25,354 nucleotides of DNA from an uncultured Hippea sp. (GTDB taxonomy: Bacteria; Campylobacterota_A; Desulfurellia; JAADFJ01). The notes under the pieces were generated by a model. It ran no database searches and had not been told where the DNA came from. It saw only the letters and a program-made list of their open reading frames with translations. Of the stretch, positions 15,801 through 25,354 are shown in pieces; position 1 is the first letter of the stretch; every line of letters begins with the position of its first letter. The position numbers and the translations under genes are program-made. Where the stretch lies: assembly GCA_913009315.1 (NCBI GenBank), contig CAJVZA010000022.1, forward strand, positions 1 through 25,354, given 5' to 3'.

Positions 15801-16838
15801 ATGAAAGATAAAGTGTTGAATGCATTAAAAGGAGTGCTCTATCCGGGATTCTCAAGAGATATAGTCTCATTCGGTATCATTAAAAATGTCGAGGTAAGAT
15901 CGGGTATCGCTGCAATAGATGCTGAGATTACAACAGATAACAGTCAGATCATAGAAACATTAAAAAAAAGTATCCCTGGTGCGGCAAAATCTGTTGCCGG
16001 AATAATCGATGTGGATTTAAAGTTTACCGTTCATAAGACATCCGAAACCGGTGAAGTTCAAAATAAAAATCTCGCACCGAATATAAAATATATAATTGCA
16101 ACAACAAGCGGCAAGGGTGGAGTAGGAAAATCTACAATAAGCTCAAATCTTGCTATTTCACTGGCAAAAAAATATGATGTAGGTCTTCTTGATGCAGATA
16201 TTTACGGACCCAACATACCCACAATGATGGGAATTGAGGGTCATCCGATTACTGTAAATGGGGACAAAAAAATTGTACCGATAGAGGTTTATAATCTCAA
16301 AGTTGTTTCAATAGGCAATATGGTTCCGCAGGGTAAAGCAATTATATGGAGAGGTTCTCTTATTCATCGGGCAATACAGCAGCTTTTAGGTGACGTAGAG
16401 TGGGGTAAACTTGATTTTCTGATTGTTGATCTGCCTCCGGGAACGGGCGATGCTCAACTGACATTAGCTCAGTCGGTGCCTATTTCCGCTTCTATAATTG
16501 TTACAACACCTCAAGAGGTGGCGATGGGCGATGCAATAAAAGCAATAGACATGTTCAAGTCGCTAAATGTTCCCATAGCCGGCGTCATTGAAAATATGAG
16601 CTATTTTCTGTGTCCCCACTGCGGCGAAAGAAGCGATATATTTGCAAGTAACGGCGGAAAAAAGCTATCAAAAAAATTCGATATTCCTCTGTTGGGAGAG
16701 ATACCGATCAACTTGTCCATAAGAGAAGGAGGAGATAACGGCAAGCCGATTTCGACAACCGATGAAGATACGATATTTGATCCGATAGCGGAAAAATTAG
16801 TTAAAGCCGTGGAAGAGAAAAACAAGAGAGATATTTAA
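15801..16838 (+). CDS. apbC: Mrp/ApbC (NBP35-type) Fe-S cluster carrier ATPase
   Basis: A cytosolic P-loop ATPase that binds and transfers Fe-S clusters to target enzymes. The 345-residue protein has an N-terminal MIP18/DUF59 domain (about residues 1-80, with LKGVLYPGFSRDIVS). The deviant Walker A is TSGKGGVGKST at 102-112, followed by LLDADIYGPNIP and IVDLPPGTGDAQLT. The cluster-bridging CPHCG lies at Cys271/Cys274. A good Shine-Dalgarno, AAGGAG, is 8 nt before the ATG. It is 94 bp after trpS and may have its own promoter. Hydrogenase, IlvD and other Fe-S enzymes in this cell are plausible clients, but this is inferred only from the neighbourhood. Confidence 0.95.
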   Translation: MKDKVLNALKGVLYPGFSRDIVSFGIIKNVEVRSGIAAIDAEITTDNSQIIETLKKSIPGAAKSVAGIIDVDLKFTVHKTSETGEVQNKNLAPNIKYIIATTSGKGGVGKSTISSNLAISLAKKYDVGLLDADIYGPNIPTMMGIEGHPITVNGDKKIVPIEVYNLKVVSIGNMVPQGKAIIWRGSLIHRAIQQLLGDVEWGKLDFLIVDLPPGTGDAQLTLAQSVPISASIIVTTPQEVAMGDAIKAIDMFKSLNVPIAGVIENMSYFLCPHCGERSDIFASNGGKKLSKKFDIPLLGEIPINLSIREGGDNGKPISTTDEDTIFDPIAEKLVKAVEEKNKRDI

Positions 16839-16854
16839 GGATATCTCCACTAAT

Positions 16855-16866
16855 TAACTCACCTTA
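16855..16866 (+). repeat. Left copy of 12-bp direct repeat flanking the mer operon
   Basis: TAACTCACCTTA here is identical to 19842-19853, 2,987 bp away in the same orientation, on the far side of the three-gene mercury operon. It continues TCGGCAA, close to the related copy at 1133-1149. Confidence 0.55.
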
Positions 16867-16926
16867 TCGGCAATCAGATGATACCCTAAACAAGCAGCAT
16901 AAGTGCAAAACAGCAGCAAGGTCTAT

Positions 16927-16980
16927 TTTGAGACTGCTGCACAAAATATGCGTATCTGCTTATTGCACAGCAGTCTCAAA
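16927..16980. repeat. MITE-like inverted repeat with 13-bp perfect arms
   Basis: TTTGAGACTGCTG (16927-16939) and CAGCAGTCTCAAA (16968-16980) are perfect complements around a 28-nt centre. The right arm plus part of the centre (16954-16978, read on the minus strand) matches 20007-20031 at 21 of 25 positions. It lies between convergent apbC and merA, 3 nt past the merA stop, so it could form a terminator-like hairpin. However, the loop is long and no T run follows. A small transposon-derived element is the better explanation. Confidence 0.6.
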
Positions 16981-16983
16981 TTC

Positions 16984-18633
16984 TTATACCGCACAGCAGG
17001 ATAGTTTATTTACATCTTTGGAAAATCCTATTGCGGCAAGTTTTACTCCTTCCGAGAGCGTTAAATACGGATGAAACATCTTTTTTATCTCTTCGGTTGT
17101 TATGCCGTACTTAATTGCAAAAGATATCTCCATCAAAAGTTCGGAACCTTCTGAAGCAAGAATGCGCGCGCCGATAAGCTTATCGGTTTTTCTATTTCTT
17201 ATAAGTTTAATAAACCCTTTTGTATTTCTTGCCGCAAGTGCCCGTGGAATATTTTCGATCGGAAGAAACGATACATCATAATCAATTCCCGCTGCGTCAG
17301 CTTGATTTTCATCCATACCTACTCCCGCTACCTGAGGATCTGTAAAAATAACCCAAGGCAAAACAGCATAGTCCTTTTCCGATTTATTTTCAGTAAACGC
17401 ATTTTTGACAGATAGTGCTCCGGCATAAGCAGCGGTGTAAACAAAAAGATGTTCGCCGGTAACATCACCCGCAGCATAGATGTTTGGGACTGCTGTGCGT
17501 TGATATTCATCGGTTTTAATGAAACCATTGCCGTGAGTCTCAATTCCTAATTTTTCCAATCCCAGATTTTTAGTGTTACCTTTGCGTCCTGTTGCGATAA
17601 ACAGGTGCGTGCCTTCAATAATCTCATCATTATCTTTTACGCTTATCTTTAGAACAATTTTATCATCCTGTTTTAGAACAGAATGAATTTTTACACCCGT
17701 TTTGATATCAACTCCTTCTTCTCTTAAATAATTGGAAAGATCTTCCGATATATCAGGCATTTCTGTTGGCAGGATACGAACTGATCTCTGGAGAACCGTA
17801 ACTCTTGAGCCGAGCCGCGCAAACAGTTGAGCATTTTCCAATGCTATGTATCTTCCGCCTATAATTATTAGATGCTTGGGAAGCTCTTCAAGCTCATAAA
17901 GGGTATCGTTTATATAATAGCCGGAATCTTTTAATCCATGAATATCGGGAATAAAAGTAGAAGAACCGGCAGCAATTAAAATCGTATCTGCAGTTCTTGT
18001 TTCACCGTTTACTTCAATCATATTTTTACCGGTAAGTTTTGCATGTCCTTTCAGAACCGTTATGTTCGGATCGTCACTGATAACGTCAACGTATTTTTTT
18101 TGACGCAGATCACTTACCAATTCTCTTTTTTGATTTATTATCTCTTTGAAATTGATCCTGTTTTTGCCATGTTTTATCCCAAAAAAATTAGGGTGATTAG
18201 AGTTATGAAAGGCTTCTGCAGTTCTGATTAATGTTTTAGAGGGCACGCATCCTACATTTACGCATGTTCCTCCGATCGGTAAACCATCGTTTATCATCAA
18301 GATTTTTTTCCCAAGTTCGCTCGCCTTAATTGCAGCGGAAAAAGCAGCCGAACCGCCGCCTGTAATAATAAGATCGAACTGCTCCGCAAAATCAAATTCT
18401 TTGCCGAATTCGCTAATCTGCCTCGATACTCTGTAGCCGGCTTTTTTGATCGCCTTCTCGATATCTGCTCGGGAAACTCCATCTTCGACTGTTAGTTTTG
18501 CATTTCCTTTTTTCCAGCTATCAATCGACACGTCAATTATACCGCTGATTTTTCTTAGTTCTCCGGAAACATCCTCTATGCATCCCGCACAATGCATTCC
18601 TTCAATTTTAAGATTTGTTGTTTTGATATTCAT
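16984..18633 (-). CDS. merA: Mercuric reductase with N-terminal HMA domain
   Basis: MerA reduces Hg2+ to volatile Hg0 in the cytoplasm using NADPH and FAD. From the ATG at 18633 it has 549 residues: an HMA metal-binding domain (GMHCAGC, Cys15/Cys18), an FAD-binding fold (IITGGGSAAF), the redox-active CVNVGC (Cys124/Cys129) and the dimerisation domain. The C-terminal vicinal pair KLSCCAV, which receives Hg2+, separates MerA from other flavin disulfide reductases. The active-site Tyr in MFHPYLTLSEG is present. An upstream ATG in the same frame exists, but the AAGGAGG that drives translation lies inside that extension, so the downstream ATG is the start. It is the last gene of a three-gene operon with no merR nearby. 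Confidence 0.96.
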   Translation of the reverse strand: MNIKTTNLKIEGMHCAGCIEDVSGELRKISGIIDVSIDSWKKGNAKLTVEDGVSRADIEKAIKKAGYRVSRQISEFGKEFDFAEQFDLIITGGGSAAFSAAIKASELGKKILMINDGLPIGGTCVNVGCVPSKTLIRTAEAFHNSNHPNFFGIKHGKNRINFKEIINQKRELVSDLRQKKYVDVISDDPNITVLKGHAKLTGKNMIEVNGETRTADTILIAAGSSTFIPDIHGLKDSGYYINDTLYELEELPKHLIIIGGRYIALENAQLFARLGSRVTVLQRSVRILPTEMPDISEDLSNYLREEGVDIKTGVKIHSVLKQDDKIVLKISVKDNDEIIEGTHLFIATGRKGNTKNLGLEKLGIETHGNGFIKTDEYQRTAVPNIYAAGDVTGEHLFVYTAAYAGALSVKNAFTENKSEKDYAVLPWVIFTDPQVAGVGMDENQADAAGIDYDVSFLPIENIPRALAARNTKGFIKLIRNRKTDKLIGARILASEGSELLMEISFAIKYGITTEEIKKMFHPYLTLSEGVKLAAIGFSKDVNKLSCCAV

Positions 18634-18660
18634 TTTATCCTCCTTCATATTTAAAATTTA

Positions 18661-19176
18661 TCAACCATTTATCCTGCAGGCATGGACTTTGATAACAGCT
18701 TTCGCATTTTGATACAAGGCAAAAACCAGCAGCAGGATTGCGCCTGCGAATAGCTCGATTTCATGCAGTGCAATAAAAGCTTGAACTGCATTGCCGCCGG
18801 AAACAGATAATAGCGGAATAAATCCACCCAAAAAACCGAAAATAATCGGCAATATCGGTGTACAGCAGAGAAACGGTGTTATTGACGAAACTAAAAATCC
18901 TCCGGCAGCGGCAGTCTTGCCCCCTTCTCTTACTTTATGATAGCTAAAGACTGTAAATGAGATAGTCATTGACATCAAGACGGCAAATAAACCCGCAAAA
19001 ATTATCAGCTCAGGGGTTAGAAATCTTAAAGATACGAGACCTATTCGTCCCCCGGTATAAGTAGAAGGCAGGATCAACAAGTAAAGCATCAAAAAAACCA
19101 ACAGAGAAGCAATGCCCAGAATTCTGTATCTTTTTGTAGAGAAAACAGTCTTGAAGGAGTGATAAATCATAAGCAT
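18661..19176 (-). CDS. Membrane protein with vicinal Cys pair, putative mercury transporter
   Basis: A 171-residue protein with about four to five hydrophobic segments (roughly 18-36, 54-80, 90-125, 137-157). The segment SITPFLCCTPILPII carries adjacent Cys104 and Cys105 inside the membrane, followed by a Gly/Pro-rich turn. A lone Cys167 lies near the C-terminus. MerT, MerF and related Hg2+ importers also use a membrane Cys pair, and the gene sits directly between a thioredoxin-like gene and merA. I therefore infer transport of Hg2+ or another thiophilic ion. I do not recognise it as a close match to MerT, MerC, MerF, MerE or MerH. It starts 3 nt after the upstream stop, with no strong ribosome site, suggesting coupling. 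Confidence 0.6.
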   Translation of the reverse strand: MLMIYHSFKTVFSTKRYRILGIASLLVFLMLYLLILPSTYTGGRIGLVSLRFLTPELIIFAGLFAVLMSMTISFTVFSYHKVREGGKTAAAGGFLVSSITPFLCCTPILPIIFGFLGGFIPLLSVSGGNAVQAFIALHEIELFAGAILLLVFALYQNAKAVIKVHACRING

Positions 19177-19179
19177 TGA

Positions 19180-19758
19180 TTATTTTACCGGTTTCCTGCT
19201 TTTGGCAAAATTGATAATCCGATCGATAGTTGCAGCAGGAGCATCACTTATAATTCTAATAAATCCTTTTTTATCAATCAAAAAATAGATATCCGGGTAA
19301 CCTTTCGAATTGTATATAGCAGCCAATCTTTTGGATGCATTACCAAATAGCCAGTTTGAAGATTTTACTACCGATTTCCCGTACTTTTCGGAGAACTCTT
19401 GAGCCGTTGGCCCCGAATATCCTCCATTTTTGTAATTTACAAGAGCAATTACCTGTAATCCGTATTTCTTTAGTCGAGGCTGATTATCGGACAATATCTT
19501 CAATCCAACCTGACAACTTGGGCACCATGTTGAGAATAACCAAAGCATAACTTTGCGGCCTCTAAATTGATCTAAATTGTATGTTTTGAGATTAACGGTA
19601 AAGACGGCATTCGGTGCTGCCTGGGCAGCCTGTGTTATGGAAATTTTTCCAGTCAAAAGAATAAATGCAACAAGCATAATTCCTGCTAAGTTCAGCAGAT
19701 GTTGTTTCAGTTTGATATCCGATGTTATATCGCTAACCATAAAAACTTTTTTGTACAT
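19180..19758 (-). CDS. Membrane-anchored TlpA/thioredoxin-like protein
   Basis: A 192-residue redoxin with one N-terminal membrane segment (about residues 21-37) and an extracytoplasmic thioredoxin fold. The active site is WCPSC (Cys79, Cys82) in LWLFSTWCPSCQVG. The fold's cis-Pro region is probably GYPDIYFLIDKKG. I start at the ATG at 19758, which has AAGGAG 5 nt upstream. The frame is open for 24 more codons, but those cross the operator and promoter. As first gene of the operon with the Cys-pair membrane protein and merA, it could act as a periplasmic thiol carrier or keep cysteines reduced, a role played by MerP in classical systems. That role is inference; a general TlpA/ResA function is possible. 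Confidence 0.8.
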   Translation of the reverse strand: MYKKVFMVSDITSDIKLKQHLLNLAGIMLVAFILLTGKISITQAAQAAPNAVFTVNLKTYNLDQFRGRKVMLWLFSTWCPSCQVGLKILSDNQPRLKKYGLQVIALVNYKNGGYSGPTAQEFSEKYGKSVVKSSNWLFGNASKRLAAIYNSKGYPDIYFLIDKKGFIRIISDAPAATIDRIINFAKSRKPVK

Positions 19759-19781
19759 ATTTGCTCCTTTTTTATTTACCC

Positions 19782-19798
19782 ATACCCTGTTGGGGTAT
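19782..19798. promoter_or_regulatory. CsoR-like palindromic operator before the mer operon
   Basis: ATACCC-TGTTG-GGGTAT is a dyad with 6-bp perfect arms, 24 bp upstream of the TlpA-like start codon. TACCC...GGGTA palindromes are typical of the CsoR/RcnR repressor family. On the minus strand TATTAT (about 19797-19802) overlaps its edge and could be the -10, so binding would block transcription. No MerR-type spaced dyad is seen. No regulator gene is in the window, so the assignment rests on motif similarity. Confidence 0.5.
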
Positions 19799-19841
19799 AA
19801 TAAATATATCGTGAAAAATCTTCTTTTCAAGCAAATATTTA

Positions 19842-20031
19842 TAACTCACCTTACGCACTAAATGTAGTTTCAGCAAAAAGAGAAGGTGTTAGATACAAGG
19901 CGGGTTCTTGCCGCCATAGCTGCGGCTTATGGCAGTATAGTTCCAACGCAGCCAAGTCACATCGGTAGATACTAAAAGTTGTTATTTTTTATCATTGTAT
20001 CGATTATGAGACCACTGCACAATAAGCAGAT
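19842..20031 (+). repeat. Non-coding repeat element, right flank of mer operon
   Basis: This unit begins with TAACTCACCTTACGCA and ends with a 25-nt sequence (20007-20031) related to 16954-16978 on the opposite strand. Between them are two small hairpins: GGCGG...CCGCC (19899-19915) and GCCATA...TATGGC (19913-19933). It occupies most of the 302-bp space between the TlpA-like gene and the racemase gene; I see no gene in that space. The structure resembles the non-coding end of an insertion sequence or a MITE, but no transposase is present. Confidence 0.5.
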
Positions 20032-20060
20032 TTACAGCTGTCAACTCCTGCACGTTTTTA

Positions 20061-20795
20061 TTATAATAATTTAGCCGGAATTTTTCCGGCGTAAAGAATT
20101 GCCGAGCGGGCAAGAATAGTCAGAGAATCAAAATATGGCACAGATATATGCTCTTGCCTCAATGCAAGAGGAATTTCCGTACAACCGGCAACTATGGCCT
20201 CTGCACAGTCATGTTTTCGATAAATCATATTTTTTGCAACTGCTATTAACCTGGTAGTTATTTCAGACATTGAGCGTGAACGCTCGGAATTCTTGATATT
20301 ATAAATTGCTTCCATAATCTCTGATTGTTCTACTGTTTCCGGTACAACAGTTTTAATACTTTCTTTGGCAAGACGCCTCTGGAACAATCCGCCGGTAACT
20401 GTCCCTGTTGTTGCCATAAGACCAACAGTTCTGATTTTATGATATTCTCTTGTAATAGTTTCAGCCACAGCATCAAAAATGGATAAAATCGGTAAATCTA
20501 TCTGTTTTTGAATTTCGGATAGAAAAAAATGTGCAGATACGCAAGGAATTATAATAAAATCGGCACCGGCCATTTCAACTGCATGACAACTATGTACTAT
20601 GGACGGTACCGGAGATTCACCGTTACCTATAATGGCTGCCGTTCTATCCGGTACCTTAGGATTGGAATCAATAACTACCCTAATATGCTGCTGATCTGTT
20701 TTAGCAGGTGTATTTTTAATAACTTTCTCAAAACAACTTAAAGTAGCTTCAGGACCCATCCCACCCACAATTCCAATGGTCTTTGTATCCATCAT
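20061..20795 (-). CDS. Aspartate/glutamate racemase family protein
   Basis: A PLP-independent amino acid racemase of the Asp/Glu/hydantoin racemase superfamily, cytoplasmic, 244 residues. GIVGGMGPEAT at the N-terminus is typical of aspartate-racemase/YgeA members. The two catalytic thiols are Cys85 in IIIPCVSAHFF and Cys205 in VAGCTEIPL. The usual PCNTAH is PCVSAH here, so the Asn and Thr beside the first Cys are changed, which may shift substrate choice. It is the last gene of the amino acid transport operon, 25 nt after the ATPase gene. It could interconvert D- and L-forms of the imported substrate before DcyD acts, but its actual substrate cannot be read from sequence. Confidence 0.88.
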   Translation of the reverse strand: MMDTKTIGIVGGMGPEATLSCFEKVIKNTPAKTDQQHIRVVIDSNPKVPDRTAAIIGNGESPVPSIVHSCHAVEMAGADFIIIPCVSAHFFLSEIQKQIDLPILSIFDAVAETITREYHKIRTVGLMATTGTVTGGLFQRRLAKESIKTVVPETVEQSEIMEAIYNIKNSERSRSMSEITTRLIAVAKNMIYRKHDCAEAIVAGCTEIPLALRQEHISVPYFDSLTILARSAILYAGKIPAKLL

Positions 20796-20820
20796 TGATT
20801 TAATGCTCCATAATCATTTT

Positions 20821-21543
20821 TTACAAGATCTGTTTTAGAAAGTCCTTTGCTCTATCGGTTTTTGTATTTATGAAAAATTCTTCATATGCACCTTGTTCAA
20901 TAATTTCTCCCTTGTCGATAAATATAATATTGTCAGCTACTTCCTTGGCAAAACCCATTTCATGTGTAACGCAAACAATTGTCATTCCGCTTTTAGCCAG
21001 GCTAATCATAATATCAAGAATGCCTTTAATCGCTTCGGGGTCCAAAGCAGACGTAGGCTCGTCAAACAACACTATCTGCGGCTTCATTATAAGAGCTCTG
21101 CCAATTGCCACGCGTTGTTGCTGACCTCCGGAAAGTTCAGCTGGGTGTGCTTGCGCATTGCTTCCCATACCAACTTGTTCCAAAAACACCATTGCTTCTT
21201 TTTCAGCTTTATGCTTAGACCAGTTAAGTACCTTTATAGGTGCTATACAAATATTCTGAAGAGCTGTCATATGTGGATAAAGTGCAAAATGTTGGAAAAC
21301 CATTCCAATATTTCTCCTCAGCTTATATAGATCTGTCTTGGGATCATTAAGAGAAATACCATTAACAATAATTTCACCTTTCTGGTACTTTTCTATACCA
21401 TTGATGCAACGAAGTAAAGTACTTTTGCCGGAACCGCTTGGCCCGCAAATGACCACCGTTTGATTACGTTCAATCGTAACATTTATATTTTTCAATACTT
21501 CAGGCTTTCCATACCATTTGCAGACATCTGTAATTGTAATCAT
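20821..21543 (-). CDS. tcyN: Polar amino acid ABC transporter ATP-binding protein (GlnQ/TcyN type)
   Basis: The cytoplasmic ATPase of a polar amino acid importer, 240 residues. Walker A is GPSGSGKST (34-42), the ABC signature LSGGQQQR, Walker B VLFDEPTSALDPE, and the H-loop VTHEMGFA. These are all intact, so it should be active. The ATG overlaps the stop of the upstream permease gene by 4 nt. Sequence alone places it in the glutamine/cystine/arginine group. The neighbouring dcyD, as in the E. coli tcyJ-dcyD-tcyL-tcyN arrangement, makes cystine or D-cysteine the first guess. The symbol is provisional. Confidence 0.93.
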   Translation of the reverse strand: MITITDVCKWYGKPEVLKNINVTIERNQTVVICGPSGSGKSTLLRCINGIEKYQKGEIIVNGISLNDPKTDLYKLRRNIGMVFQHFALYPHMTALQNICIAPIKVLNWSKHKAEKEAMVFLEQVGMGSNAQAHPAELSGGQQQRVAIGRALIMKPQIVLFDEPTSALDPEAIKGILDIMISLAKSGMTIVCVTHEMGFAKEVADNIIFIDKGEIIEQGAYEEFFINTKTDRAKDFLKQIL

Positions 21544-22196
21544 GATAACCCAGTTTTTTTATTCGCCGTTTCAAAATATGTTGCAATTTTCGATCCACTG
21601 AAGCAAAATATAAAAAATACGATAGCAACGAATCCATAAATTTGTATTGAACGCACTTCTATATTATCTACAATAGATGCACTTCTCACGAATTCTCTCA
21701 ACCCTATTACAAAAGCTAAGCTTGTATCCTGAAAAGTTATAATTGCCTGAGTAACCAAACTTGGCAACATACGTTTAAAAGCAATAGGAATTAAAATGTA
21801 ACGAGCTATTTGCGTATGCTTCATACCCGTAGATAAAGCAGCAGAAACTAAATCCTTGCTGATAGACTGGTAACCCGACCTGAAAATTTCCGCGAAGTAA
21901 GCTGATTCAAAAATGATGAAGGAGATAGTTGCTGAAAAAAATGGAGTAAATGAACGCCCGGAAATTATAGGCATAAAAAAGTAAAACCAGAATATGACGA
22001 GTATCAGCGGAATACTACGCAAGATATTGATATAGACGGAAACAAAATAATATACGAATTTATTTTTAGAAATACGACCAAGACCCAACAGAGCTCCTAA
22101 AATAATACCCCCTATAATGCCAAGAATTGCCAATTCGAGGGTTAATGTAAATCCGTTTATAAAAAATACTATGTTATTAGTTACAGCTTTAAACAT
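21540..22196 (-). CDS. Polar amino acid ABC transporter permease, second copy
   Basis: One of two HisM/TcyL-type inner-membrane permeases, 218 residues, with about five hydrophobic segments. It has the family N-terminal pattern GFTLTLELAILGIIGGIILG. The EAA loop reads AALSTGMKHTQIARYILIPIAFKRMLP, the ATPase contact site. It begins 2 nt after the stop of the other permease gene and overlaps the ATPase gene by 4 nt. The two permeases differ clearly in sequence, so they likely form a heterodimer rather than being a recent duplication. Confidence 0.92.
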   Translation of the reverse strand: MFKAVTNNIVFFINGFTLTLELAILGIIGGIILGALLGLGRISKNKFVYYFVSVYINILRSIPLILVIFWFYFFMPIISGRSFTPFFSATISFIIFESAYFAEIFRSGYQSISKDLVSAALSTGMKHTQIARYILIPIAFKRMLPSLVTQAIITFQDTSLAFVIGLREFVRSASIVDNIEVRSIQIYGFVAIVFFIFCFSGSKIATYFETANKKTGLS

Positions 22197-22198
22197 AT

Positions 22199-22912
22199 CT
22201 ACCGCCCGGCCATACCGGGTATCCTTACCTTAGATTCAATAATTCCGGATATCTTTACAATAGTCAAACTGAGTAATAAATAAATGGTCATTGCCCCTGT
22301 AGTTGCTTCTAATCCATGAAAAGTTGTAGAAGCAATGCGGTAGCTCGTAAATGTTGTTTCTGCAACACCAATCGTCATTGCTACTGATGAGTTTTTAAAA
22401 ATTGTTAAAAACTCCGTTGTTAAAGTTGGGATGATTATTATCAGGGCATGCGGGATGATCACATGGCGATACATTTGATAACGAGTCATACCTGTAGACA
22501 AAGCTGCCTCGTACTCCATTGTCTCTATAGATGCTAATCCTGCCCGCATATGTTCTGCGATCCTGGATGCAGTATAAAGTCCCAATGCAATTATAGCTAT
22601 ATAATAGTTAAAACCAATAATATGATTAATATAAATTCTAATAGTATCTGGAAAAATCATCGGGAATGCAAAATACCACATAAACAGTTGCACTAAAAAA
22701 GGAACGTTACGAAAGATCTCCGTATAAGCAGTAGGTAAGAAATGCAGCCATCCTGAAGAGGATGACCGCAATGTACCTATGAAAATACCTGAAAGAGCTA
22801 TTATCCATGCAAAGAAGCCGATTTCGAGTGTTAGCCGTATTCCATGCATCCACCATGTAATGTATGGTTGCGACCACAAAACACTCCAATTATAGTGATA
22901 AGCAAAAGTCAT
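22199..22912 (-). CDS. Polar amino acid ABC transporter permease, first copy
   Basis: A HisM/TcyL-type permease of 237 residues with about five hydrophobic segments. It opens with a hydrophilic stretch (YHYNWSVLWSQPYITWWMHG) and then GIRLTLEIGFFAWIIALSG. The EAA loop is AALSTGMTRYQMYRHVIIPHAL. A good ribosome site, GAGGAG, is 5 nt before the ATG. It follows the solute-binding protein gene by 27 nt. The longer N-terminus resembles GltJ-like permeases of acidic amino acid systems, so glutamate/aspartate import remains an alternative to cystine. Confidence 0.92.
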   Translation of the reverse strand: MTFAYHYNWSVLWSQPYITWWMHGIRLTLEIGFFAWIIALSGIFIGTLRSSSSGWLHFLPTAYTEIFRNVPFLVQLFMWYFAFPMIFPDTIRIYINHIIGFNYYIAIIALGLYTASRIAEHMRAGLASIETMEYEAALSTGMTRYQMYRHVIIPHALIIIIPTLTTEFLTIFKNSSVAMTIGVAETTFTSYRIASTTFHGLEATTGAMTIYLLLSLTIVKISGIIESKVRIPGMAGR

Positions 22913-22939
22913 ACATGCTCCTCTATGCTTTTTACTTTT

Positions 22940-23842
22940 TTATTTCCACCATCCACTTGACATTGGGAATACCATCATCTTAAGGTAATTTTTGTATGCG
23001 ATAGACAGAGGTATTGGAATAACACCGTTCGGACCCATCCATTTGCGGTACATTTTAAAAAATTTGCCGGTTTTAATAGACCATTTAATAGTATCATTTA
23101 CAAAGTCCCTGAAATCCGAGTTATTTTTTCGCATTATGTAACCATAAGGCTCATACGCTATAGCAAAGTCAACTGTTCTCCATTTATTCGGATGTCTCGA
23201 CTTCATGCGTATTCCCTCTAAAAGGCTTCTATCGGTTGAGTATGCGTCAATTTTGCCACTTTCTAAAGCCAACATGCCCTGTGGATGAGTTTCAGTAACT
23301 ATAATGGCCCGAGGATGAATTTTCCCTTCTTTAACCAGTTTTTCTACAGCATGCAGGTTAGTGGTTCCACGCGCCGCACCTATACGTTTCCCATTAAGAT
23401 CCTGCAAAGTTTTAATGCCGCTGTCCTTGGCAACAAGAAATGTTGTTTCAGAAAAGAAAAAAGGCATACTAAAATCAACTACATCTTCGCGTTTTTGCGT
23501 GTAAGTGGTAGATCCCATTTCAATATCAATAGTTCCATTAATAGTCAATGGAATACGTGTGGCTGGCGTAATGGTGATAGGTACAATTTTAATCTTTTTA
23601 TTAAAGTGTAAACTTAGATATTTCACTAATTGTTTTGCCATATCTACGGAAAATCCTATATGCTTTCCAGTTTTAGGTGTAATATAAGCAAACGGGATTG
23701 ATCCTTCTCTAAAACCGATTCTGATTTCTCCAGTTTTCTGAATTCTGTTCATTGTTCCATCCGCCATCGCTACGGTACTTGTTGCAAATATTAAAACACC
23801 AAGCATGACAATTGCCAATCCTATGTTGAATAACCGTCTCAT
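22940..23842 (-). CDS. Periplasmic solute-binding protein of the amino acid ABC transporter
   Basis: A family 3 extracellular solute-binding protein of 300 residues that captures an amino acid in the periplasm. The N-terminus is a Sec signal peptide (MRRLFNIGLAIVMLGVLIFA, cleavage probably after VAMA). There is no lipobox Cys, so it is soluble as expected for a Gram-negative. Typical features are GEIRIGFREGSIPFAYI, GFSVDMAKQLVKYL, the domain-crossing segment FSMPFFFSETTFLVAKD, and LNGKRIGAARGTTN. AAGGGGGA lies about 6 nt before the ATG. The DMA and RGTT motifs are close to those of glutamate/aspartate-binding GltI and to FliY/TcyJ. Ligand choice cannot be settled without a structure model or binding data. 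Confidence 0.93.
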   Translation of the reverse strand: MRRLFNIGLAIVMLGVLIFATSTVAMADGTMNRIQKTGEIRIGFREGSIPFAYITPKTGKHIGFSVDMAKQLVKYLSLHFNKKIKIVPITITPATRIPLTINGTIDIEMGSTTYTQKREDVVDFSMPFFFSETTFLVAKDSGIKTLQDLNGKRIGAARGTTNLHAVEKLVKEGKIHPRAIIVTETHPQGMLALESGKIDAYSTDRSLLEGIRMKSRHPNKWRTVDFAIAYEPYGYIMRKNNSDFRDFVNDTIKWSIKTGKFFKMYRKWMGPNGVIPIPLSIAYKNYLKMMVFPMSSGWWK

Positions 23843-23881
23843 AACATCCCCCTTAAAATTTTTTTACATATATTAATAAAC

Positions 23882-24880
23882 TTAATTCAATATCTCCTTT
23901 TGATAAGCGAACAATGCCGGTGAGCCTCCTGTATGTACAAATAGTACGTTTTCACCTTTTTTAATAACGCCTTTGCGCGACAGGTCAATCAAACCAGCCA
24001 TTGCCTTTCCCGTATATACAGGATCCAAAAGAATGCCTTCGATTTGTGCTAACATATTTATTGCCTCTGATGTCCCTGCATTAAGTAAAGAGTACTGTGG
24101 ACGCCAGTAATCTCCAAAACAGGTCACAGCATTACTACTGATAGATGAATTAACACCTACATGGTCAGCTGTTTTTTGTACAAGATCATAAACTGCTTTT
24201 TCCTGAATCTCCTTGTCGCGGCTAACATCAATACCCCAGATTGGAATATTCATATTACATCCGTACATTCCTGTTATTAAACCGGCTTGAGTGCCGGTTG
24301 ATCCACTGGCAACAACTATTTTATCAAAATTAAGTCCTTTTTCGTGCATCTGATTCTGTATTTCCTGGGCACAGGCAACATATCCGGTTGCACCTATAGG
24401 ATTAGAGGCGCCACCGGGAATGATGTAGGGTTTATGTCCTTCTTTATCAACCTCCTCAGCTACCTGTTCCATGGCCTCCATCATATTTGAGCCACCCAGA
24501 ACAACTTTAATCTTTTCCACACCCAGTAAATAATAAAGAAAATTATTTCCACTGGCATTCTTATCGTAAGAGTTTACAACGCGTTCTTCCAGGACCAAAC
24601 GACATTTCATTCCTTCCTTAACTGCAGCAGAAAGAGTTAAACGACAGTGATTAGATTGAATGGCTCCACAAGTAATTAATGTGTCATATTCTTTATCTAA
24701 AGCATCAGCAACTACAAATTCCAATTTACGTGTTTTATTGCCGCCACCTGTTAGTCCCAACAAGTCGTCCCGTTTAATGTATACGTTTGGTCCTCCCAGA
24801 ACCTTAGTAAGTTCCGGAAGAAACTCAATCGGCGTTTGTCCTTCAGTATACCTTCTACGCGGAAATTTCGTCAAATTCAT
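23882..24880 (-). CDS. dcyD: D-cysteine desulfhydrase (PLP enzyme)
   Basis: DcyD breaks D-cysteine into pyruvate, H2S and ammonia in the cytoplasm. It is a fold-type II PLP enzyme of 332 residues, close in length and motif order to E. coli DcyD: FIKRDD-like YIKRDDLLGLTGGGNKTRKLEF (catalytic Lys in NKTRK), GAIQSNHCR, VVASGSTGTQAGL, LDPVYTGKAMAGLI and FVHTGGSPALFAY. ACC deaminases of the same family have Glu in the DPVYEGK position; here it is Thr, which favours D-cysteine desulfhydrase. AAGGAGAGG lies about 6 nt before the ATG. It follows ridA by 98 bp and precedes the binding-protein gene by 39 bp. A broader D-amino acid lyase activity is possible. Confidence 0.9.
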   Translation of the reverse strand: MNLTKFPRRRYTEGQTPIEFLPELTKVLGGPNVYIKRDDLLGLTGGGNKTRKLEFVVADALDKEYDTLITCGAIQSNHCRLTLSAAVKEGMKCRLVLEERVVNSYDKNASGNNFLYYLLGVEKIKVVLGGSNMMEAMEQVAEEVDKEGHKPYIIPGGASNPIGATGYVACAQEIQNQMHEKGLNFDKIVVASGSTGTQAGLITGMYGCNMNIPIWGIDVSRDKEIQEKAVYDLVQKTADHVGVNSSISSNAVTCFGDYWRPQYSLLNAGTSEAINMLAQIEGILLDPVYTGKAMAGLIDLSRKGVIKKGENVLFVHTGGSPALFAYQKEILN

Positions 24881-24978
24881 AATAACCTCTCCTTTTCTGT
24901 TTTAATAAATTATTGAATGCCCAAATTACCTTCAAAATATTTCTTTGAACTTAAATCTTAATATGGTAAATAATAAAG

Positions 24979-25354
24979 TTATTGTATAGCGATTGCTTCA
25001 ATTTCTACACTCACATCCTTTGGCAAACGTGCTACCTCCACGCAGCTTCTTGCAGGAAATTTTTCTGTAAAATATTCCGCATATATTTGATTAAATTTGG
25101 TGAAATCATTCATATCTTTTAAAAATACAGTTGTTTTTACCACATTTTTCAAAGCAACGGAATATAACCCTAAAAGCATCTTTAGGTTCTCTAATATTTG
25201 TTTAGTCTGCTTTTGCACATCTCCCTCTACTATATTTCCGGTTTCAGGTTCTTTAGGAATTTGGCCTGATACAAATAACGTATTTCCCACCTTTACTGCC
25301 GGAGAATATGGCCCAATTACGACAGGGATCTTATCGCTTTTATTAACAACTTTT
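24979..25354 (-). CDS. ridA: RidA family enamine/imine deaminase, 5' end off the window
   Basis: RidA hydrolyses reactive enamine/imine intermediates such as 2-aminoacrylate, which PLP enzymes like DcyD release. The frame runs unbroken to the right edge of the window and shows 124 residues, including IGPYSPAVKVGNTLFVSGQIP at the N-terminal side and PARSCVEVARLP with the substrate-binding Arg near the C-terminus. A GTG at 25290 opens a shorter frame, but the sequence upstream of it is clearly RidA (DKIPVVIGPYSPAVK), so the true start is a few codons beyond 25354. Full-length RidA has about 125-130 residues. Placement before dcyD in the same direction suggests one detoxifying pathway. Confidence 0.93.
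   Translation of the reverse strand, partial: KVVNKSDKIPVVIGPYSPAVKVGNTLFVSGQIPKEPETGNIVEGDVQKQTKQILENLKMLLGLYSVALKNVVKTTVFLKDMNDFTKFNQIYAEYFTEKFPARSCVEVARLPKDVSVEIEAIAIQ

Follow-up and report, generated by a model that had tools for sequence, protein, structure and literature searches.

MITE remnants beside an apparently vertically inherited mercury operon in an uncultured Hippea species

The merA-merT-tlpA operon of an uncultured Hippea species lies between short repeats, and an earlier note on this DNA read operon and repeats together as a possible mobile resistance cassette. Our analysis of the 25,354-bp window, which is contig C22 of a 1.74-Mb genome (G000; 96 contigs, 88% complete), indicates with high confidence that the repeats are ordinary insertions and remnants of miniature inverted-repeat transposable elements (MITEs) around a vertically inherited mer operon, in a genome that has been much rearranged. 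The evidence consists of family membership, copy number, target duplication, a single clean empty site, a divergence of mer that resembles that of core genes, and right-hand neighbors that differ between species, with MITE remnants at the junctions. The mercury cassette was a false lead, and its place is taken by two MITE families, MITE1 and MITE2, which are new families of a known kind; the literature searched held no paper on either one or on IS1182-derived MITEs in the host group. Comparisons were made with two sister species of the same genus, G001 and G002, both incomplete metagenome-assembled genomes (MAGs; 88% and 94%), and statements about the genus cover these three sampled species. 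Copy numbers come from pattern searches, and the context of copies from single genome stretches taken individually.

Two MITE families at the borders of mer

The repeats themselves were largely as first described. Within the window, TAACTCACCTTA occurs only twice, once on each side of the operon (16855-16866 and 19842-19853); the two copies share a strand and are separated by 2,987 bp. Positions 16954-16978 on the minus strand and 20007-20031 on the plus strand are identical at 21 of 25 bases. A 13-bp inverted repeat said to include the left TAACTCACCTTA was not found; the sole 13-bp inverted match there, TCGGCAATCAGAT at 16867-16879, adjoins that copy and has its partner far away at 2234. What had been overlooked is a near-perfect palindrome at 16927-16980, a complete short MITE1 element that has the left minus-strand repeat as one of its arms. 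Absence of the repeats from the rest of the genome, raised in the earlier note as grounds for abandoning its proposal, was not observed, as TAACTCACCTTA has 10 genome copies, TAACTCACCTTACGCACTAAA (that is, TAACTCACCTTA plus 9 bases) has 16 sites at up to three mismatches, and the 21-mer TGAGACCACTGCACAATAAGC has 142 at the same threshold, each against a count of 0 for the reversed control. TAACTCACCTTACGCACTAAA is the end of the MITE2 family and TGAGACCACTGCACAATAAGC the end of the MITE1 family.

Fetched loci yielded 52 distinct MITE1 inverted pairs, with ends of 20-28 bp and an overall range of 49-457 bp; most measure 49-55 bp or roughly 155, 263 or 427 bp, and all are non-coding and lack a transposase gene. 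Identical 5-bp repeats flank 23 of the 52 pairs, and all of these are ATNAT. They can be read as a 5-bp duplication or equally as a 3-bp TNA duplication within a preferred A-TNA-T target, the second reading being possible because the flanking repeat is always AT-N-AT. A clean empty site was recovered for one 263-bp copy, which in G000 lies between AAACAATAAT and ATAATGCAA, where G001 reads AAACAATAATGCAA with a single ATAAT; a second comparison, at a 51-bp copy in G001, gave a near-empty site that is not clean. MITE1 thus has several properties by which MITEs are recognized: terminal inverted repeats, short length without a transposase, target duplication and dispersal in many copies.

The MITE1-end pattern, allowing two mismatches, occurs at 141 sites in G000, 122 in G001 and 2 in G002; a set of 38 other relatives had none. 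This expansion in two of three species offers a small natural series for a MITE burst. A scan of named genomes placed most other copies of the end in MAG M_MaxBin.016 (Campylobacterota, JAADFJ), where match positions agree with those in G001. One match in Sulfurimonas (L139) was discarded as a lone degenerate 21-mer with no clear partner end, of which we estimate that about one would be expected by chance in 257 Gb. Many G000 contigs end inside MITE1 copies (for example C9, C12, C13, C18, C20, C21 and C42, and further C44, C53, C64, C66, C74, C76 and C79), and MITE1 is probably one reason why this assembly is fragmented. On contig C66, a 55-bp stretch (positions 122-176, L117) identical to window positions 20809-20863, at the end of an ABC ATPase gene, joins a MITE1 end to the tail of an ABC ATPase paralogue of distant sequence (32%), which is either recombination or an assembly chimera.

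MITE2 is likewise multicopy with terminal inverted repeats. Full copies in G001 are about 265 bp long with ends AACTGATGTTACGCACTAAAC, a sequence variant AACTCACCTTACGCACTAAA occurs in G000, and end sites number 13 in G000, 49 in G001 and 1 in G002. TATTA stands on both sides of the element in loci L124 and L085 and is imperfect in other copies.

At the left border of mer, the palindromic MITE1 (GAGAC...GTCTC; 48 bp at 16930-16977, 49-55-bp class) has 18-bp arms that are 89% complementary, separates apbC from merA where their 3' ends converge, and is predicted to fold on the merA strand into a hairpin of -30.2 kcal/mol (z -6.3). The left TAACTCACCTTA copy (plus strand), with its orthologous G001 stretch at L085:7757-7659, is possibly a degenerate MITE2 end; it is followed by TCGGC, departing from the family sequence CGCACTAAA. 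The right border holds a MITE2 fragment at 19838-19951 (plus strand), consisting of one end (TA|ACTCACCTTACGCACTAAA) and part of the body, which matches over a dozen places in G001 at 79-90% and has lost its other end. Beyond it lies a solo MITE1 end at 20007-20044 (plus strand), matching dozens of MITE1 copies; its outer end points toward mer, and it has no partner end, the remainder of the element being missing before cuyB.

Inheritance of mer and exchange of its neighbors

The merA-merT-tlpA genes are present in all three sampled species. Their proteins, in that order, are 91, 89 and 90% identical to those of G001 and 74, 71 and 73% to those of G002, and the neighboring proteins are 91-99% identical to G001 and 72-85% to G002 (apbC 97 and 83, trpS 92 and 79, lptE 92 and 72%, respectively). 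At the DNA level, mer is 90.5% identical to G001 compared with 91.8% for the adjoining 12 kb of core, and 72.7% identical to G002 compared with 76.1% for the flanking core. Other relatives at class level gave matches of only about 25-37%, as expected from other members of the flavoprotein family. Judged from these sequences, the operon appears old in the genus and vertically inherited, because it is found in all three species with core-like divergence, and the same divergence led us to reject a recent horizontal gain. No relative has an empty site uniting apbC with the racemase gene cuyB, as the cassette proposal had envisaged.

Whether mer keeps one place among relatives, a further point that the proposal had turned on, depends on the species: the operon abuts apbC in G000 and G001 and lies elsewhere in G002. 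There, apbC is followed by a cluster of DUF47/Pit/Ppx type, as read from translations, and mer adjoins FTR1- and ArsR-like genes. Since these G002 neighbors of mer are split over three separate G000 contigs, genome scrambling is general. The G002 pit/ppx cluster was sought in G000 and G001 and not found, which alone is uninformative. On its other side mer adjoins dnaJ-hspR-ruvA-xseA in G001 and a cysteate cluster in G000, and the G000 contig carrying dnaJ ends inside a MITE1 copy. Together with the fragments in the window, this places MITE remnants at differing junctions.

Competing explanations

The course of events that we favor is that MITEs would have inserted into two intergenic gaps next to an already resident mer operon. 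MITE1 presumably moved by means of a transposase acting in trans, perhaps one related to the insertion sequences (ISs) IS1182 or IS5 that survives as a broken copy with a matching end. Later deletion and recombination at MITE copies would have swapped the neighbor of mer, leaving dnaJ there in the sister species and the cysteate cluster in G000; the transposase partner and the role of MITEs in causing rearrangements are what we infer. The search for an intact IS with the same ends, suggested in the earlier note, recovered one damaged relative, a G000 transposase with DUF772 and DDE domains that is truncated at 291 aa and has a MITE1 end 138 bp upstream. It scores under the family cut-offs (IS1182, 123 of 270 bits; IS5_4, 113 of 140 bits), a second MITE1 end was not found beside it, and the interior of the element is unlike MITE1. 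By sequence, this copy is a candidate parent of MITE1 and not proof of one.

Several observations weigh against our reading. The putative parent is truncated, falls below curated cut-offs and has one end only, and target duplication in MITE2 is clear in few copies. Beyond its 12 bases the left TAACTCACCTTA no longer follows the MITE2 consensus, and it could be either a chance match or a heavily decayed copy. Finally, cysteate-cluster DNA found no match in G001 or G002 except for a short ABC-ATPase stretch, and as both sister MAGs are incomplete this absence could be a gap.

That the shared flanking sequences arose by chance altogether deserves almost no credence. The shortness of the 12-mer is the only point in its favor, and a 12-mer common to both intergenic gaps appeared in 11 of 5000 shuffles; the genome counts of the two repeats against empty controls refute a chance origin of MITE1 as well as of the right TAACTCACCTTA, although not fully of the left one. 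It is also very unlikely that mer forms, or until recently formed, a composite element that travels as one unit enclosed by two MITE copies. The same repeat families do flank both sides, neighbors of mer did change within the genus, as its different place in G002 attests, and integrons of Acinetobacter set a precedent, having been moved between two 439-bp MITEs with target repeats of 5 bp (PMC3934969). Movement of this kind, however, would require a target duplication and, to either side, an outer end that faces outward, and here the left copy is a 48-bp derivative and the right copies are single ends, MITE1 and MITE2 each keeping the mer-facing end without the outer one; a pair of complete copies of a single MITE is not present. 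The two TAACTCACCTTA copies point the same way and are not inverted, the operon is not bracketed by an outer target duplication, divergence from both sisters is core-like, and the scattering of the G002 neighbors over G000 contigs makes movement of mer part of the general scrambling. The truncated flanking copies and the missing outer duplication are the grounds on which we rejected a composite mer transposon. Of the cassette proposal, the non-autonomous elements therefore stand, as ends of families dispersed through the genome, and their carriage of mer as a unit does not.

Two further explanations concern what the MITEs did after insertion. A refinement of our reading, possible but held tentatively, is that a MITE-mediated rearrangement predating the split of G000 and G001 set mer beside apbC and that later ones swapped the other neighbor. 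It would account for apbC being followed by the DUF47/Pit/Ppx-type cluster in G002 and by mer in the other two species, and for the dnaJ side, where G000 and G001 are unlike and MITE1 remnants lie both at the junctions and where the G000 contig with dnaJ ends. Rearrangement through other repeats or by simple recombination could do the same, however, and contig breaks hide the joins. We consider it doubtful that the repeats were kept for a function, such as termination of apbC and merA transcription, as domesticated MITEs or elements resembling repetitive extragenic palindromes. The palindrome does stand directly after the merA stop with a strongly stable hairpin, and the MITE1 family keeps its base pairing through sequence changes, but no strong T-run follows the hairpin, the left gap in G001 differs in content, and an intergenic position is expected of any MITE.

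Fold of MITE1, known relatives and other features of the window

The pairing was examined in a 263-bp MITE1 copy (L046:1258-1520), whose predicted fold comprises an outer stem formed by the ends and two long hairpins, at -111.7 kcal/mol compared with -54.4 in shuffled sequences (z -12.9). When 15 copies were aligned with their orientation corrected, 96.2% of cells paired, and changes on both sides were seen at 23 pairs compared with 13.8 in shuffles (0 of 500), a signal that was lost on sliding the partner and that relatedness of copies can inflate, according to the tool's own warning. One could suppose that this three-way fold is kept by selection as a recognized single-stranded DNA or RNA form, for the element's own movement or for host transcripts, while copies remodel the mer borders, but we think this improbable. 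Arm exchange within palindromes or descent from few source copies could equally give the paired changes, which are not proof of selection because palindrome arms may exchange sequence, and stable folding is a known property of MITEs (PMC10969869).

Described bacterial MITEs, including Chunjie of Geobacter uraniireducens, QMITE2 of Coxiella and Correia of Neisseria (PMC10969869), resemble the elements described here in being short and non-coding with inverted ends and flanking duplications, and also in their intergenic positions, copy numbers of tens to more than 100, size variants and very stable stem-loops. MITE1 differs from them in sequence and host, in its outer stem with two long hairpins, and in its mostly discrete size classes, and no earlier description of it in this host was found in the literature searched. 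The Acinetobacter integrons (PMC3934969) share with mer the placement of related non-autonomous elements to either side of resistance genes; they have two identical full 439-bp MITEs and 5-bp outer direct repeats, whereas mer has fragments, no outer duplication and no evidence of movement as a unit. The likeness to IS1182/IS5-like elements (DUF772 with DDE_Tnp_1) is the truncated G000 copy with its MITE1 end 138 bp before the transposase, and the differences are the truncation of this partner, its scores below cut-off and an interior unmatched to MITE1.

The operon itself lies on the minus strand. merA (16984-18648) encodes a mercury(II) reductase with an N-terminal HMA domain and C-terminal Cys-Cys, supported by Pfam and passing the curated NCBIfam cut-off (TIGR02053, 531 bits compared with 454). 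The adjacent gene (18661-19176) encodes a 171-aa Cys-Cys membrane protein that we call MerT-like from position and motif only; it is conserved in all three species and had no Pfam or NCBIfam match. The first gene (19180-19755) encodes a TlpA/ResA-like thioredoxin-fold protein (Pfam Redoxin/AhpC-TSA, NCBIfam ResA-like). A pattern scan of the window, L085, L086 and L118 located the palindrome TACCC-TGTTG-GGGTA (TACCCTGTTGGGGTA) in the mer promoter region at 19783-19797, conserved in G001, a putative operator resembling those of CsoR type. A true MerA beside a small Cys-Cys membrane protein matches known mer operons; the differences are that no merR is present in the window, that a TlpA-like gene comes first, and that the operator-like palindrome stands in place of a divergent regulator. 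In G002, the sequence directly upstream of tlpA (L118, about 300-690) reads as an apparent ArsR-type regulator gene. For mercury biology, the vertical inheritance of a mer operon that lacks merR has modest interest. Between merA and apbC, G001 also has a 124-aa Cys-rich YHS-domain protein (L085:6813-7187) that is absent from the window and is possibly a metal-handling accessory, and just past merA in G002 lies a third dispersed palindromic repeat (L086:10604-10862), which has matches at several places in G000 and at over 10 in G001.

To the left of mer is apbC/Mrp (15801-16838, plus strand), a NUBPL-type P-loop ATPase gene common to G001 (Pfam PF10609, 6.8e-96). No Rfam family reached its gathering score in the window. 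To the right, the minus-strand gene at 20061-20795 encodes the cysteate racemase CuyB (NF052483, 228 bits, cut-off 190) and begins a cysteate-use cluster that extends over 20061-25353 and also includes an amino-acid-type ABC transporter, the CuyA sulfo-lyase (511 bits, cut-off 450) and RidA.

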